Below the pieces are notes generated by a model. The model had not been told where the DNA came from. It did no database searches and worked only from the letters and a program-made list of their open reading frames with translations. Both the position numbers and the translations under genes were made by a program. Shown one piece after another: positions 4,222 through 49,037 of a stretch of 64,000 bases of DNA. The DNA comes from Vreelandella massiliensis. Its GTDB lineage: Bacteria > Pseudomonadota > Gammaproteobacteria > Pseudomonadales > Halomonadaceae. The stretch lies in the NCBI RefSeq assembly GCF_900155385.1, contig NZ_LT699745.1, positions 1,643,561 through 1,707,560 of the forward strand, in the 5' to 3' direction. Each line of letters starts with the position of its first letter. Position 1 is the stretch's first letter.

Positions 4222-5893
4222 CGAGAACTCAACACAAAAGACCAAGGATGAGACGAACCTGCACCGCGCCAAACCCACGCCACAGGCGCGGCTGTCGCCC
4301 ATCTGGATCATTCCTCTCGTTGCTATTGTCATTGGCCTGTGGCTGGTCTACGACAACTACACAAGCCGCGGCACGCTAATCACCCTTACCACGGAAAACG
4401 CAGAAGGGATCGAGGCCGGTAAAACCCTGATTCGCAGCCGCAGTGTCGAGGTTGGCCGGGTAGAAAGCGTTCAGCTTTCAGACGACTTGTCTCATGCAGT
4501 CATCACCGCGCGTATTAATCAAAACGCCGAAGCCATGCTCAATGAAGAGAGCCGTTTCTGGGTCGTCAAACCACGTATTGGGCGCGAAGGCATTAGCGGC
4601 CTTAACACCGTTTTATCAGGCGCCTATATCCAGCTTGAGCCCGGCAACAGCAATCAACCCAAACGAGAATTTAATGTTAGCGATACACCGCCTGTCGCCT
4701 CCGCTGGCATGGCGGGATTACAACTTAGACTGGTCAGTCAACTAGGTAATTCGCTGAACGTTGGCGACCCTGTTGCGTATCAAGGCTATACCGTTGGTCG
4801 CGTGGAAGAGGCAAACTTCAACGCTAGAGAGCGCACCATGCACCATCAAATCTTTATCGAAGAGCCCTATGCCAAGTTGGTCACCGATAGCACACGCTTC
4901 TGGGTGTCTAGCGGCGTCGATTTTCAACTTGACGCCGACGGTGTGAGCGTCAATCTGGCCTCTCTTGAAACCCTGCTTGGCGGTGGAGCAACGTTTGGCG
5001 TCCCTGAAGACCTACCCATGGGGGAACCCGTGGATGCCAATACCCGCTTCAGTCTCTATGCCGATGAACAGAGCGCTCGGGAAGGCACCTTTAACCGCTA
5101 TTTGGAGTACGTACTATTAGTGGATGAATCCGTGCGTGGCTTGAGCAAAGGCGCACCGGTGGAGTTTCGTGGCGTACGCGTCGGAACGGTTGCCGCAGTA
5201 CCGTGGAATTTCACCGCGCCACAGCCCGATTCCCGGGCGCGTTTTGCTATTCCCGTGCTTATCCGTATTGAACCACAGCGTTTGGGTATCGAAAGCGCTG
5301 ATATTGATTTAGAGGAGTGGGATGAGCGTTTTCAGCGCATGTTCAACACTGGCCTTCGCGCCTCTCTAAAAAGCGGCAATTTGCTTACGGGCGCGCTATT
5401 TGTCGACCTTAACTTCCAGCGTGATCGCCAGGATGGGTACCAACAAGAGACATTTGCCGGCCACACCGTTTTCCCCACAGTGGCGGGAGATTTTGCGCAA
5501 ATCCAGGCACAAATCACTGCCTTGTTGGACAAACTTAACGGGCTTGAGGTTGAACCCCTGCTAGCGGGATTAAACCGAAATTTAGAGGCCTCGGAAGCCG
5601 TGCTAGAAGAAATAAACACGCTCTCGCAGTCTCTAAATCAGCTATTGACTGACCCCGATACGCAAGCCGTCAGTGGCAATATCAATACGACGCTGAACGC
5701 GTTACGCAAGACGCTAGAAGGTTTGTCGCCTAACTCGCCGGCTTATCAAGAGCTTATCTCTACTGCCGATCGAATAGACCGAGTGCTCCGGGATTTACAA
5801 CCGCTGACGCGAACACTGAATGAAAATCCGCGGGCACTTTTATTCGATAATATCGATACTCAAGACCCCATTCCTCGTGCACCCCGTGATTAA
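4214..5893 (+). CDS. pqiB: PqiB, periplasm-spanning MCE-domain protein
   Basis: About 560 residues, close to E. coli PqiB (546). A single N-terminal transmembrane helix (LSPIWIIPLVAIVIGLWLVY) anchors the protein. Three MCE domains follow, seen as repeated patterns of the type ENAEGIEAGKT, QLGNSLNVGDPVAYQG and VRGLSKGAPVEFRGVRVG. A C-terminal helical region (about residues 430-560, rich in Leu/Asn/Glu) fits the long coiled needle described for PqiB hexamers. I place the start at the ATG at 4214, because AGGA at 4203-4206 is well spaced for it and it overlaps the pqiA stop by a few bases; an ATG at 4208 is the alternative. It works with PqiA and PqiC in envelope lipid transport. Confidence 0.93.
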   Translation: MTNENSTQKTKDETNLHRAKPTPQARLSPIWIIPLVAIVIGLWLVYDNYTSRGTLITLTTENAEGIEAGKTLIRSRSVEVGRVESVQLSDDLSHAVITARINQNAEAMLNEESRFWVVKPRIGREGISGLNTVLSGAYIQLEPGNSNQPKREFNVSDTPPVASAGMAGLQLRLVSQLGNSLNVGDPVAYQGYTVGRVEEANFNARERTMHHQIFIEEPYAKLVTDSTRFWVSSGVDFQLDADGVSVNLASLETLLGGGATFGVPEDLPMGEPVDANTRFSLYADEQSAREGTFNRYLEYVLLVDESVRGLSKGAPVEFRGVRVGTVAAVPWNFTAPQPDSRARFAIPVLIRIEPQRLGIESADIDLEEWDERFQRMFNTGLRASLKSGNLLTGALFVDLNFQRDRQDGYQQETFAGHTVFPTVAGDFAQIQAQITALLDKLNGLEVEPLLAGLNRNLEASEAVLEEINTLSQSLNQLLTDPDTQAVSGNINTTLNALRKTLEGLSPNSPAYQELISTADRIDRVLRDLQPLTRTLNENPRALLFDNIDTQDPIPRAPRD

Positions 5894-45652: not shown

Positions 45653-45681
45653 TTGACACGGATCGAAGGGGTCATTAGACT
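45653..45681 (+). promoter_or_regulatory. Sigma70 promoter of the met riboswitch-metNIQ transcript
   Basis: TTGACA (45653-45658), a 17-base spacer, TAGACT (45676-45681). Transcription would begin near 45688, about ten bases before the riboswitch stem, which strengthens both calls. Confidence 0.8.
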
Positions 45682-45697
45682 TTTGCCGCACATATAA

Positions 45698-45769
45698 AGA
45701 CGCCGATTTGTACCCAGATTGCGGGCGTCTACCTAGCGAGTCGTTGGGTAAAATGCAGCTAAAAGGGTG
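45698..45769 (+). ncRNA. SAM-II-type riboswitch upstream of metNIQ
   Basis: The H-type pseudoknot of SAM-II (SAM_alpha) can be traced. P1 is AGACGCC (45698-45704) paired with GGCGTCT (45724-45730). The loop starts GATTTG, carries TACCC (45711-45715) and ends ATTGC, as in the known class. The 3' part GTAAAATGCAGCTAAAAGGG (to 45767) matches the conserved TAAA-TG-AGCTAAAA-GGG segment, and GGGTG (45765-45769) can pair with TACCC to close the pseudoknot. An extra small hairpin ACCTA/TGGGT (45731-45735 with 45745-45749) is inserted between P1 and the conserved 3' part. The element binds S-adenosylmethionine in known examples. Here it sits just after a good promoter and before a terminator and the methionine transporter. 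Confidence 0.87.
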
Positions 45770-45783
45770 TGTCCAGCGTTGAT

Positions 45784-45811
45784 GGCCACCCGTTTAGGGT
45801 GGCCTTTTTTT
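45784..45811 (+). terminator. Riboswitch expression-platform terminator
   Basis: A perfect 8-bp stem, GGCCACCC (45784-45791) with GGGTGGCC (45797-45804), loop GTTTA, then seven T. It precedes metN by about 80 bases, so it must be read through for expression. CACCC in its left arm can pair instead with GGGTG at the end of the riboswitch, a possible antiterminator. Confidence 0.9.
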
Positions 45812-45892: not shown

Positions 45893-46951
45893 ATGATCGA
45901 ACTTAAAAACGTCAGTAAAACCTACTTTACCAAAGCGCGTGGTAGCGACGCGGGCGTCGTGCATGCACTAAAAAACGCCGACTTGCACATCCCCAAGGGC
46001 ACCATTCACGGCGTAATCGGCTTGTCGGGCGCCGGTAAATCCACCTTGATACGCTGCGTCAATCTGTTGGAGCGCCCGACGGAAGGCAGCGTCGTGGTCA
46101 ATGGCCAGGAAATGACGCGTTTGAATGCGCAGGAGCTCAATCAGGCGCGACACCGCATTGGCATGATTTTTCAGCATTTTAACCTGCTCACGACACGCAA
46201 TGTGTTTGACAACGTCGCCTTGCCACTGGAGTTGATGGGGCGCTCCAAAAGCGCTATTCGTAAGCGCGTCCTGCCGCTTTTAGAGCTTGTAGGCCTTAGC
46301 GATAAAACCCGCCAGTTTCCTTCCCAGCTCTCCGGCGGGCAAAAGCAACGCGTCGCCATTGCCCGGGCACTGGCCAGTGAGCCCGCGGTGCTACTTTGTG
46401 ACGAGGCGACGTCAGCCCTTGACCCCCAAACCACCGGCTCTATTTTGGAGCTGCTGCGCGATATCAATCAAACTCTCGGCATCACCATTTTGTTGATCAC
46501 GCATGAAATGGAAGTCGTGAAGTCGATCTGTCATCGCGTCAGCCTGATTTCCGGCGGGGAGCTTGTGGAGAACGCAGTGGTCGGCGATTTCTTCACCGCC
46601 CCGCGTACACAGCTTGGCCGTGAGTTTTTGAACGACTTTCTCCAGCTCTCGCCGCCCAAAGAGCTGGTGGAGCGGTTAGAGGACACACCGAGCGAGGCGA
46701 CGCACCCGGTGGTCCGCCTCACCTTTTCCGGCGATGCCGTCTCCACGCCGCTTATTTCTCAGCTCGCGCGCGAGTGCGGCGTTGACGTCAGTATTCTTCA
46801 AGCCAAAGTGGAGTCGATTCAGGAGCGCACCCTGGGCCTGATGATTGCTGAGCTACTGGGAACACCGGAACAAACCGAACAGGCGATGAACTATCTTGAA
46901 TCTCACCAGCTACAAGTAGAGGTATTGGGTCATGTCCAGCGCAATGATTAA
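45893..46951 (+). CDS. metN: MetN, methionine ABC transporter ATPase
   Basis: A 352-residue ATPase powering uptake of methionine. Walker A GLSGAGKST (about 43-51), signature LSGGQKQRVAIARAL, and Walker B VLLCDEATSALDP are intact. The C-terminal ~90 residues form the NIL domain (VVRLTFSGDAVSTPLISQLARECGVDVSILQAKVESI...), which binds methionine and gives trans-inhibition in E. coli MetN. The gene is under the SAM-II/terminator leader and overlaps metI by 20 bases. Confidence 0.96.
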   Translation: MIELKNVSKTYFTKARGSDAGVVHALKNADLHIPKGTIHGVIGLSGAGKSTLIRCVNLLERPTEGSVVVNGQEMTRLNAQELNQARHRIGMIFQHFNLLTTRNVFDNVALPLELMGRSKSAIRKRVLPLLELVGLSDKTRQFPSQLSGGQKQRVAIARALASEPAVLLCDEATSALDPQTTGSILELLRDINQTLGITILLITHEMEVVKSICHRVSLISGGELVENAVVGDFFTAPRTQLGREFLNDFLQLSPPKELVERLEDTPSEATHPVVRLTFSGDAVSTPLISQLARECGVDVSILQAKVESIQERTLGLMIAELLGTPEQTEQAMNYLESHQLQVEVLGHVQRND

Positions 46952-47585
46952 CCTTATTCTGCAGGCAACGCTGGATACGCTCTATATGGTAGCGGTATCC
47001 GGCGTGATCTCGACGCTTCTCGGCATACCACTTGGGGTAATGCTCTATGTCACTCGGCCACAGCAAATCTTGCCTAGGCCGATACTCAATTCCGTGCTTG
47101 GGGTGATCACCAATATCGGCCGTTCGATCCCGTTTATCATCCTGATGGTGGCCATCATTCCCTTTACGCGAATGCTGGTGGGCACGTCTATCGGCATTAA
47201 CGCTGCGGTGGTCCCACTGACCATTGCCGCTATCCCTTTTGTCGCCCGCCTGGTGGAGGGCGCACTCAACGAGCTATCCCCGGGGTTGGTGGAAGCCGCA
47301 CAGGCGATGGGCGCGACACCCTGGCAGATTATTCGCAAGGTATTACTTCCCGAAGCACGCGGTGGCATTATGACGGGCCTGACGATTACGTTGGTGACGC
47401 TAGTCAGCTACTCGGCCATGGCAGGTGCTGTGGGCGGCGGTGGTCTCGGAGACTTGGGCATTCGTTACGGCTACAACCGTTTCAATCCTACTATTATGCT
47501 TATTACCGTGGTGATTTTGGTGGTCATGGTGCAAGGCTTCCAAAGCATTGGTGACTACTTGGTGCGCAAAAGTGATCGCAAATAA
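46932..47585 (+). CDS. metI: MetI, methionine ABC transporter permease
   Basis: A 217-residue inner-membrane permease with five transmembrane helices. ATLDTLYMVAVSGVISTLLGIPLGVMLYVT is the typical N-terminus, and the EAA loop VEAAQAMGATPWQIIRKVLLPEARGGI is the docking site for the ATPase. YSAMAGAVGGGGLGDLGIRYGYNRFN is highly conserved in MetI. Translation is coupled to metN through the overlap. About 90 bases separate it from metQ. Confidence 0.95.
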   Translation: MSSAMINLILQATLDTLYMVAVSGVISTLLGIPLGVMLYVTRPQQILPRPILNSVLGVITNIGRSIPFIILMVAIIPFTRMLVGTSIGINAAVVPLTIAAIPFVARLVEGALNELSPGLVEAAQAMGATPWQIIRKVLLPEARGGIMTGLTITLVTLVSYSAMAGAVGGGGLGDLGIRYGYNRFNPTIMLITVVILVVMVQGFQSIGDYLVRKSDRK

Positions 47586-47677: not shown

Positions 47678-48475
47678 ATGAAAAAGCTTTTGATCGGCGG
47701 TCTTTCCGCTTTTGCGTTAACCCTCAACGTGGCGAATGCGGACTCACCCAGCATTAAAGTGGGTACCGTGGCGGGACCGGAAACCGATGTCATGCAGGTT
47801 GCAGCAGAGATTGCCCAGCGCGAGTACGGCCTGACTGTCGAAATCATCGAGTTCACCGACTACGTCACGCCCAACGCGGCACTCGCCGATGGCAGCCTGG
47901 ACGCCAACGCTTACCAACACGAGCCCTACATGCAGGCCATGGTCAACGACCGCGGCTATGACTTCGCCATCGCCGGCTACACCTTTGTGTACCCGATTGG
48001 TGCCTATTCGGAAAAGTACGACAGCATCGACGAATTACCCGAAGGGGCTCAAATCGCGCTACCCAACGACCCTTCCAATGAAGGGCGCGCGCTGATTCTC
48101 ATGCATAACCAGGGTCTGATTACGCTAGAAGACCCGACAAACCTGGAAGCAACCCCCATTGATATCCTCGCCAACCCCAAAAACTTCCGCTTCCGCGAGA
48201 TTGAAGCCGCGCAGCTTCCCCGCGTACTGCCGGATGTCGATTTGGCCTTTATCAACAACACCTTTGCTCAGCCGGCAGGACTAAGCCTCGATGACGCGCT
48301 GATCCAAGAGGGCCCCGAGTCCCCCTACGTCAACCTGATCGTGGTCCGCGACGGCGACGAGGACCGTGACGAAATTCGTCAACTGGTCAACGCTTACCAA
48401 ACGGAAGCCGTTGTCGAAAAAGCCTCAGAGCTTTTTGGCGGCGCTGCCGTTCCCGGTTGGGTCGACAAGCAATAA
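47678..48475 (+). CDS. metQ: MetQ, methionine-binding protein
   Basis: A 265-residue periplasmic binding protein of the NlpA/MetQ family. KVGTVAGPETDVMQVAAEIAQREYGLTVEIIEFTDYVTPNAALADGSLDANAYQHEPYM is the characteristic ligand-entry region, and AFINNTFAQPAGLSLDDAL lies in the second lobe. The signal peptide (KKLLIGGLSAFALTLNVANA) has no lipobox Cys, unlike E. coli MetQ, so it should be a soluble periplasmic protein. RBS TAGGAGG is strong. A terminator follows, before msrC. Confidence 0.94.
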   Translation: MKKLLIGGLSAFALTLNVANADSPSIKVGTVAGPETDVMQVAAEIAQREYGLTVEIIEFTDYVTPNAALADGSLDANAYQHEPYMQAMVNDRGYDFAIAGYTFVYPIGAYSEKYDSIDELPEGAQIALPNDPSNEGRALILMHNQGLITLEDPTNLEATPIDILANPKNFRFREIEAAQLPRVLPDVDLAFINNTFAQPAGLSLDDALIQEGPESPYVNLIVVRDGDEDRDEIRQLVNAYQTEAVVEKASELFGGAAVPGWVDKQ

Positions 48476-48554: not shown

Positions 48555-49037
48555 ATGACACACACCACCGATTACGCCTTACTTAATAAACAGCTCCACG
48601 CTCTGCTGGACACCCGCGACTGGCTGACCAATAGCGCTCAGCTTAGCGCGTTCATATTTGAGCAAATTCCTGATCTTAACTGGGTAGGGCTTTATCTACA
48701 CCGCGAACCAGAAACCCTCTGCCTCGGCCCGTTTCAAGGCAAGCCCGCTTGCCACCCTATTCCCTTTAGTAAAGGCGTTTGCGGTGCGGCGGCACGCAGT
48801 AGTCAAACCCAGCGGGTGGGTGACGTTCACGCCGTGGCCGACCACATCGCCTGCGATGCGGATTCACGCTCCGAGCTTGTGATCCCGATCGTGGCGGACG
48901 AGACGCTTTGGGGCGTACTCGACCTCGATAGCCCCAAGCTCGAGCGCTTCAGCGCAGCGGATCAAGCAGGGCTTGAGTCCCTCGTGGCTCTTTTTACCCA
49001 GCGCACAGAACTTCCGCGTTTTATCGAAGCGCCCTGA
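48555..49037 (+). CDS. msrC: Free methionine-(R)-sulfoxide reductase (GAF domain)
   Basis: 160 residues from the ATG at 48555; a longer in-frame extension upstream lies inside metQ and is rejected. It reduces free Met-R-sulfoxide to methionine with a thioredoxin-like donor. The three conserved Cys are C66 (KPACHPIP), C76 (KGVCGAA) and C100 (HIACDADS); their spacing of 10 and 24 equals that of C84, C94 and C118 in E. coli fRMsr, where the last is catalytic. The GAF fold motifs NWVGLYLHR, LGPFQGKPAC and SRSELVIPI...LWGVLDLDSP fit. It follows the methionine importer, which in other bacteria also takes up Met-sulfoxide. Confidence 0.93.
   Translation: MTHTTDYALLNKQLHALLDTRDWLTNSAQLSAFIFEQIPDLNWVGLYLHREPETLCLGPFQGKPACHPIPFSKGVCGAAARSSQTQRVGDVHAVADHIACDADSRSELVIPIVADETLWGVLDLDSPKLERFSAADQAGLESLVALFTQRTELPRFIEAP

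Follow-up and report, generated by a model that had tools for sequence, protein, structure and literature searches.

What controls the methionine transporter operon metNIQ of Vreelandella massiliensis, and why is the leader in front of it missed by the covariance model of the RNA class that it resembles? Our analysis concerns a stretch of 64,000 nt from this genome (the window), in which a promoter, an aptamer-like region and a terminator lie upstream of metN (Table 1). We conclude, with a probability of about 0.88, that this leader is a SAM-II riboswitch bearing an extra hairpin, P3, and that it serves metNIQ as a transcriptional OFF switch. That the target is metNIQ, as an earlier note made from the sequence had proposed, is borne out by family searches, which name metN, metI and metQ downstream, TIGR02314 being by far the best family for metN. 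The start of metN lies 124 nt downstream of GGGTG, beyond the terminator, and the GAF-domain gene is possibly the last gene of the operon; we assume that its product may be a free methionine-(R)-sulfoxide reductase. MetJ was not found in this genome by a search that matched E. coli as positive control, and we propose the leader as the regulator of metNIQ in a bacterium without MetJ. A single clear copy of the element is present in the genome; two further matches, at E 0.5–0.8, were taken as chance.

Table 1. Features of the metN leader and of the genes behind it, in window coordinates.
Feature	Position	Strand	Basis or score
Sigma-70-type promoter, TTGACA - 17 nt - TAGACT	45653–45681	+	10/12 consensus letters
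Promoter hexamers TTGACA; TAGACT	45653–45658; 45676–45681	+	read directly
P1 5' strand GACGCC	45699–45704	+	read directly, covariation
GATTTG, third strand of SAM-II triplex, predicted ligand-contact region	45705–45710	+	
Predicted P2 pseudoknot 5' strand TACCC	45711–45715	+	
ATTGC, SAM-II core	45718–45722	+	
P1 3' strand GGCGTC	45724–45729	+	
Inserted hairpin P3, TACCTAGC-GAGTC-GTTGGGTA, 8 bp, 21 nt, at P1 3' end	45730–45750	+	
AAATGCAGCTAAAA, SAM-II 3' core	45751–45764	+	
AAATGCAGCTAAAAGGGTG, 3' core plus GGGTG	45751–45769	+	read directly
GGGTG, predicted P2 3' strand or else antiterminator 5' strand	45765–45769	+	
Proposed antiterminator GGGUG.G.CCA / UGGCCACCC	45765–45791	+	−10.6 kcal/mol
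Intrinsic terminator GGCCACCC-GTTTA-GGGTGGCC, then T7	45784–45804; 45805–45811	+	−17.5 kcal/mol
metN, methionine ABC transporter ATPase with NIL domain	45893–46951	+	TIGR02314 473 bits, below curated 499.7
metI permease	46932–47585	+	NF008049 above cut-off
metQ / NlpA lipoprotein	47678–48475	+	PF03180 and TIGR00363 above cut-offs
GAF-domain protein	48561–49037	+	PF13185/PF01590; no NCBIfam match

The promoter, core motifs, pseudoknot partners, terminator and T7 tract that the earlier note had named all lie where it placed them, as read directly. Sites comparable to the promoter are expected 0.5 times in shuffles of the region, and in relatives TTGACA-like and −10-like hexamers precede the leader, as judged by eye. 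The terminator alone is no proof, because a simple scan gives 0.8 such sites in shuffles. The pattern GATTTG..TTGCGGGCG..GCTAAA occurs once in the 64-kb window and in none of 100 shuffles, and the whole leader folds with z = −4.57 (0/200 shuffles equally stable), the aptamer part alone giving z = −1.95 (9/200 shuffles as stable). The letters GATTT, TTGC and GCTAA are the same in all 38 rows (37 with P3, one without), and so are the first two A residues after P3, at the start of AAATGCAGCTAAAA; the ligand-contact residues are those given in PMC11508383, with their register mapped onto the leader in the present analysis. P1, drawn previously as the seven pairs of AGACGCC/GGCGTCT, stands as a helix of 6 bp, because relatives do not conserve the seventh pair, A45698–T45730, which would also be in competition with the hairpin; in 44 leaders 98.9% of its cells are paired and two of the six pairs show changes on both sides. 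The leader element is real and well explained, and no artefact. The segment TGTCCAGCGTTGAT (45770–45783) is almost invariant across the family, beyond the needs of the proposed antiterminator.

The comparison with the Rfam SAM-II model, RF00521, that the earlier note had suggested gave only a partial match of 11.8 bits for the window leader (model positions 10–43, E 9), below the gathering score of 36. At Rfam gathering cut-offs the whole window yielded two tRNAs and nothing else; weak cmscan matches to NsiR9, isrD, SpR20, MicA, Phe_leader and ZFAT-AS1, all below their own cut-offs and most of them resting on the terminator, were discarded. Over the whole genome RF00521 found 14 weak places, none above cut-off, and all 14 control genomes also match at E ≤ 10. 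We consider the low score most likely to be due to the inserted P3-like hairpin, which lies between P1 and the 3' core and had been overlooked in the earlier note. The metN leaders of genera g391 and g401 lack the hairpin but keep both the core and the GGGTGTGTCCAGCGTTGA-CCACCC platform, and the one from g391 (L137, same family) reaches 36.9 bits with RF00521, above the cut-off. Three metN leaders from family f8 of the same order (L046, L067, and L068), also without hairpin, are reported by RF00521 at 27.7–34.8 bits, below the cut-off. Because these P3-less leaders match RF00521, the element in the window is a homologue of SAM-II, hidden above all by its insert; the invariant core letters and the score of L137 likewise uphold the assignment to a SAM-II-type aptamer. 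RF00521 was listed in none of 15 P3-bearing loci (L009, L016, L022, L040, L041, L042, and L044, scanned at E ≤ 10; L061, at E ≤ 1; L188, L194, L200, L207, L210, L229, and L237, at E ≤ 5) and in all seven P3-less loci scanned (L046, L064, L067, L068, L070, L137, and L148), one of the seven above cut-off; the bare window stretch, which did list the partial match, is separate from the 15. These counts suggest that the model has a blind spot for P3-bearing SAM-II elements.

The hairpin at 45730–45750 is a real helix. In a MAFFT alignment of 22 genus leaders, which was not fitted to the structure, seven of the eight P3 pairs show changes on both sides, and P1, P2 and P3 together reach a covariation of 0.212, against 0.099 in shuffles (0/500 reaching the observed value) and no more than 0.056 when the three helices are slid. 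With 44 leaders aligned by model, an alignment that is for this reason biased toward the structure, both-side changes were found in all eight P3 pairs and 94% of cells were paired; 3 of 500 shuffles match the count of double-change pairs and none of 500 the covariation score. P3 varies freely in sequence and length (about 13 to 40 nt as parsed), and the 80 distinct parsed inserts fold better than shuffles overall (mean −7.6 vs. −4.2), with only 34 of the 80 reaching 5% individually and those of L252, L263, and L249 folding no better than shuffles. The parsing itself was imperfect, as L070, which has no insert, was mis-parsed, and L200 and others were shortened. Not every hairpin-sized insert, then, is a proven helix.

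The leader was found upstream of metN in all 37 genus genomes of the first draw, V. massiliensis included, although in one (G035, leader L044) only with a looser pattern, and the P3 hairpin is present in all 37. In a later draw from the family, a search model built from the 22 genus leaders matched at E ≤ 0.01 in 162 of 201 genomes and 21 of 24 genera; among the 162, the match in G723 looks like chance, that in G841 is a remnant, and some are extra copies away from metN. The G723 match (L147, 21.6 bits) and three others (L063, L073, and L152) apparently lie inside coding sequence and were taken as chance. One genus genome of the later draw (G802, L281) has a decayed metN leader consisting of a core remnant and a broken terminator, and in G720 (L282) and G841 (L146) the metN leader is reduced to a P1 remnant without 3' core or terminator. 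By terminator scan, a terminator is present in all 30 genus leaders that bear an aptamer and in none of the seven family metN leaders whose aptamer is lost or decayed (L281–L286 and L146). The terminator is thus lost together with the aptamer while metN stays.

When 54 MetN proteins were placed in a tree, a single supported group of 39 (96/84) took in 32 of the 33 leaders with a hairpin, the other seven members of the group having lost the leader; the remaining hairpin-bearing leader, L291, sits at an open base, and leaders without the hairpin fall outside the group. If the P3 label is scored against every other row it needs seven changes, because lost leaders count as changes. The tree has long branches and kept 54 of 73 rows, after removal of 18 genus rows and of L303, whose MetN runs off the fetched sequence, and L139, L142, L145, and L302, which carried no MetN, were left out. 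As a lead more than a proof, the tree suggests that P3 was probably gained once in the Halomonadaceae and that the whole leader was lost repeatedly. Among named records, Halomonas getboli (L237), H. ventosae (L255), and H. salipaludis (L270) have a like leader before metN, their MetN proteins being 78, 84, and 75% identical to that of the window, about the level seen between genera of the family.

Some genomes depart from this arrangement. Genus g25 has SAM-II elements whose P3-like hairpin is short and which do not lie directly before metN (L139/L302 in G792; L142/L303 in G755); in G755 what we take to be a TetR-like gene stands between element and metN, and no MetN was found in the 2.25 kb fetched at the element of G792. 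Two further g25 genomes, G165 and G710, have metN without the leader. In one genome of the same genus as the window (G005:C1:2603775–2604829) metN is split over two frames with stops between, behind an intact leader, which reflects either a sequencing error or a pseudogene. The phage collection gave no match to the element.

How would this leader act? P1 and P3 would fold first. When SAM is abundant it would bind the triplex core formed by GAUUU, AUUGC and GCUAAA, and GGGUG would be held in P2 with UACCC, which would leave the left arm of the terminator free, so that the terminator would form and transcription would end before metN. When SAM is scarce, GGGUG would instead pair with CACCC (45787–45791), extended by CCA/UGG, which would delay the terminator and allow RNA polymerase to read into metNIQ; without SAM the antiterminator should outcompete P2, whose energy as a duplex alone is about −7.3 kcal/mol. 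Because the terminator (−17.5 kcal/mol) is more stable than the antiterminator (−10.6 kcal/mol), the switch would be kinetic and not at equilibrium; over 40 rows, one of which is a spurious opposite-strand match, the mean energies are −15.9 and −10.3 kcal/mol, respectively. The OFF logic proposed here and the partners named for P2 and the antiterminator agree with those of the earlier note. By analogy with SAM-V, P3 would most likely stack under P1, on the side away from the ligand, and steady the fold, and the occurrence in the same family of metN leaders with and without P3 permits a direct test of this role.

The two strands of P2 are complementary in the window, and CCC/GGG is nearly invariant in the genus, within which P2 has no compensatory change: two pairs never vary and three depart by mismatches only. 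In the f8 metN leaders the P2 letters read, by eye, CUU/AAG. Over 224 distinct elements, some of which are perhaps chance, each element's own partners beat shuffled ones (0/2000), and after collapsing to 165 distinct combinations 31 of 2000 shuffles pair as well; alignment A3 was left out of the P2 analysis because the register of P2 differs from family to family. The antiterminator could follow the same logic in relatives with other letters, since by eye a possible one arises from the core in L064 and L066 (GCTAAAG with CTTTAGC of the left arm) and in L070 (GCTAAACAG with CTGTTTAGC), and another possible one in family f8 pairs GGUUU with AAACC.

The alternative partner of GGGUG might, however, be a long helix of GACGC-GAU-UACCC (within 45699–45715) with GGGUG-GUC-GCGUU (within 45765–45780), which would open P1 and for which the near-invariant TGTCCAGCGTT would be kept. 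This helix is the minimum-energy fold of the whole leader when pseudoknots are left aside, a fold in which P1 is broken and the terminator is present all the same, and it would explain why the antiterminator loop GCGTTGA is nearly invariant without evident need in the antiterminator pairing. We nevertheless think it unlikely: by leaving the terminator free it does not on its own provide an ON state, inspection by eye revealed no compensatory changes in it (a change of A to G in P1 is met by G-U only), and in leaders with CGCGCC P1 strands (L138 and L139) it loses one pair. It is more doubtful still that the terminated leader is mainly a small RNA acting in trans, a role suggested for RZ from S. 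meliloti metZ, which derives from a SAM-II leader (PMC9373788), and for other such leader RNAs. The strong terminator would be in keeping with such a role, whereas conservation tracks the aptamer and the downstream met gene, and leader and terminator are lost jointly while metN stays.

The P3 hairpin might also be taken as the mark of a SAM-V riboswitch or of a separate new SAM class, a reading that we regard as very improbable. The account of SAM-V on which we rely is, we take it, that of Huang and Lilley. In it a stem-loop, P3, begins where P1 ends on its 3' side, and behind it come stacked A residues that face P1 (PMC6061858), a layout that speaks for SAM-V. However, the SAM-V model RF01826, which the earlier note had also proposed to run, found no match in the V. 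massiliensis genome at E ≤ 10, in a search that matches by chance in 9 of 14 controls, and no SAM_V row appeared in any cmscan of the window leader or its relatives. The closest P3-less relative, L137, passes RF00521, an indication that the core belongs with SAM-II, and the platform here is a terminator whereas that of SAM-V is translational (PMC6061858). A leader-peptide attenuator, encoded by ATG/GTG CAG CTA AAA GGG TGT GTC CAG CGT TGA (MQLKGCVQR) overlapping core and platform, would have a frame that is open in the window and in many genus leaders, but we rejected it as barely conceivable because L015 and L041 keep the core although changes of one base in length disrupt the frame in them, L137 has no start codon for it and the peptide has no run of Met codons.

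Relatives of this element also occur outside the family. Named genomes searched for the pattern GATTTG-N-TTGCGGGCG-N-GCTAAA gave at least 119 stretches holding at least 120 elements, and genes within 700 nt downstream were identified by blastp, with six reference proteins taken from the window and the scanned loci. At E < 1e-8, 87 of the 120 listed elements precede metX (49), a PLP enzyme of Cys/Met metabolism of the metZ/metY/metB kind (21), metN (10), or metH (7); at E < 1e-40 the figure is 79 of 120 (49, 18, 9, and 3, respectively). One metN match, L192 at 25% identity, is probably another ABC protein, and 33 of the 120 were matched to no met gene, some for want of sequence. metN is thus a recurrent target of SAM-II-like elements here. 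A hairpin-sized insert is found in 19 of the 120 listed elements, all 19 before met genes, although a few of these inserts fold poorly; among the matches listed, the genes behind them are metN in six cases (three Halomonas and three Legionellaceae), metX in 11 (Burkholderiales and other beta- or unclassed proteobacteria), and a PLP enzyme and metH in one each. By eye, the hairpin replaces the linker in Halomonas, whereas in Burkholderia hairpin and linker are both present, and this difference in the join suggests separate gains of P3.

Neither the host nor the platform, both of which the earlier note had singled out, sets this leader apart. A gammaproteobacterial host is unremarkable because RF00521 finds a match at E ≤ 0.01 in 135 of 369 class genomes (30 of 369 above cut-off; 0 of 14 controls), with none in V. 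massiliensis or the two other family genomes of the draw. The class as defined by GTDB (Gammaproteobacteria) includes the beta-proteobacteria. Gamma-proteobacterial examples of SAM-II were reported in 2007 by Barrick and Breaker (PMC2258182), who also give termination as the mechanism that SAM-II uses most often in alpha- and beta-proteobacteria; the majority of SAM-II switches are considered to work in this way (PMC2258182; PMC1273637; PMC6061858). In the open-licence PMC literature we found neither SAM-II, riboswitch and metN together nor "SAM-II riboswitch" and Halomonas together, both weak negatives; SAM-II with "additional hairpin" returned one paper, on NMR shifts by its title.

Several other arrangements were noted during these scans. 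SAM-II-like tandem aptamers about 112 nt apart occur in genus g24 (L148/L156, L149/L158, L150/L155, L151/L154, L153/L160, and L145/L161), and Halomonas urmiana (L189) has such a pair at 4241 and 4353. A terminator-like sequence follows the first aptamer; the second, GCCGATTTAAGCACCAACTTGCGGGCGG..GCTAAAGCGGCG, is nearly identical in all pairs seen and is followed by a Shine-Dalgarno sequence and short ORFs, several of which share the motif DDIVRPELRxDAIL, in one case with an AzlC protein (PF03591) behind. Two further proteins had no Pfam match, no met gene was recognised among the ORFs behind these pairs, and the plasmid collection, searched for the tandem g24 element, gave one 19% match. One genome, G831, has up to seven element matches. 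On the strand opposite two SAM-II elements, RF02424 (Bp2_287, a Burkholderia sRNA; cut-off 70) was matched at 37.4 bits (L148:1463–1576, + strand) and 25.2 bits (L188:3849–3999, + strand), and to judge from these overlaps Bp2_287 may be the antisense strand of a SAM-II leader. In family f9, SAM-II-like elements with a terminator-like sequence (L062:871–926 and L065:1501–1556) precede not a recognised methionine gene but an AAA ATPase, which we presume to be of the MoxR/CobS kind.

Compared with known systems, the window leader shares with SAM-II (SAM_alpha, RF00521) P1, the GAUUU..UUGC..GCUAAA core, the predicted P2 partners, a promoter a few nt before P1, a terminator after the aptamer and a met target, as these are described in PMC1273637 and PMC2258182; it differs in its 21-nt hairpin at the 3' end of P1, in falling below the RF00521 cut-off, an operational and not a structural criterion, and in having metNIQ as its target. 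The SAM-II element of S. meliloti metZ, the source of sRNA RZ, is likewise predicted to end transcription on SAM binding, but it is alpha-proteobacterial and controls a biosynthesis gene, and P3 does not figure in the relevant passages of PMC9373788. A further likeness is to metXZ, an orphan RNA element of beta-proteobacteria with a pseudoknot of regions 1–4 and 2–6 and a terminator behind, which stands before metXW or else, in three members of the Methylophilales and in Nitrosospira and Thiobacillus, before metZ (Leyn et al. 2014, PMC4239095). Its ligand is left open in the passages that describe it, where SAM_alpha is given by Rfam scan for Rhizobiales and Rhodobacterales only (PMC4239095). 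Our elements from Novimethylophilus (L164) and Nitrosospira (L177) precede a PLP enzyme of the metZ/metY/metB kind, 35 and 33% identical to the reference, and among the matches listed Burkholderiales elements often precede metX. Layout, genes and lineages are thus common to metXZ and the SAM-II elements found here, the comparison being one of architecture and gene context and not of letters, and on these grounds the metXZ element is probably a SAM-II RNA, which would suggest a ligand for this orphan.

With SAM-V the window leader has in common a hairpin in the P3 position directly after P1, followed by invariant A residues. It differs in having no RF01826 match, its nearest P3-less relative belonging to RF00521, and in having a terminator in place of control over a ribosome-binding site, there being no Shine-Dalgarno sequence of metN in or next to the aptamer. 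P3 is stated to be absent from SAM-II (PMC6061858); we take the hairpin described here to qualify that statement and not the membership of the leader in SAM-II, because L137, which lacks P3, has the same core and platform as the leader. The hairpin thereby does away with one of the structural differences said to separate SAM-II from SAM-V. We lean slightly toward the view that P3-bearing SAM-II RNAs form a subclass bridging SAM-II and SAM-V, invisible to the Rfam model and including part of metXZ, in which P3 would have arisen separately in several lineages of proteobacteria (Halomonadaceae metN, Legionellaceae metN, and Burkholderiales metX). If so, SAM-II and SAM-V would make up one structural superfamily in which P3 comes and goes.
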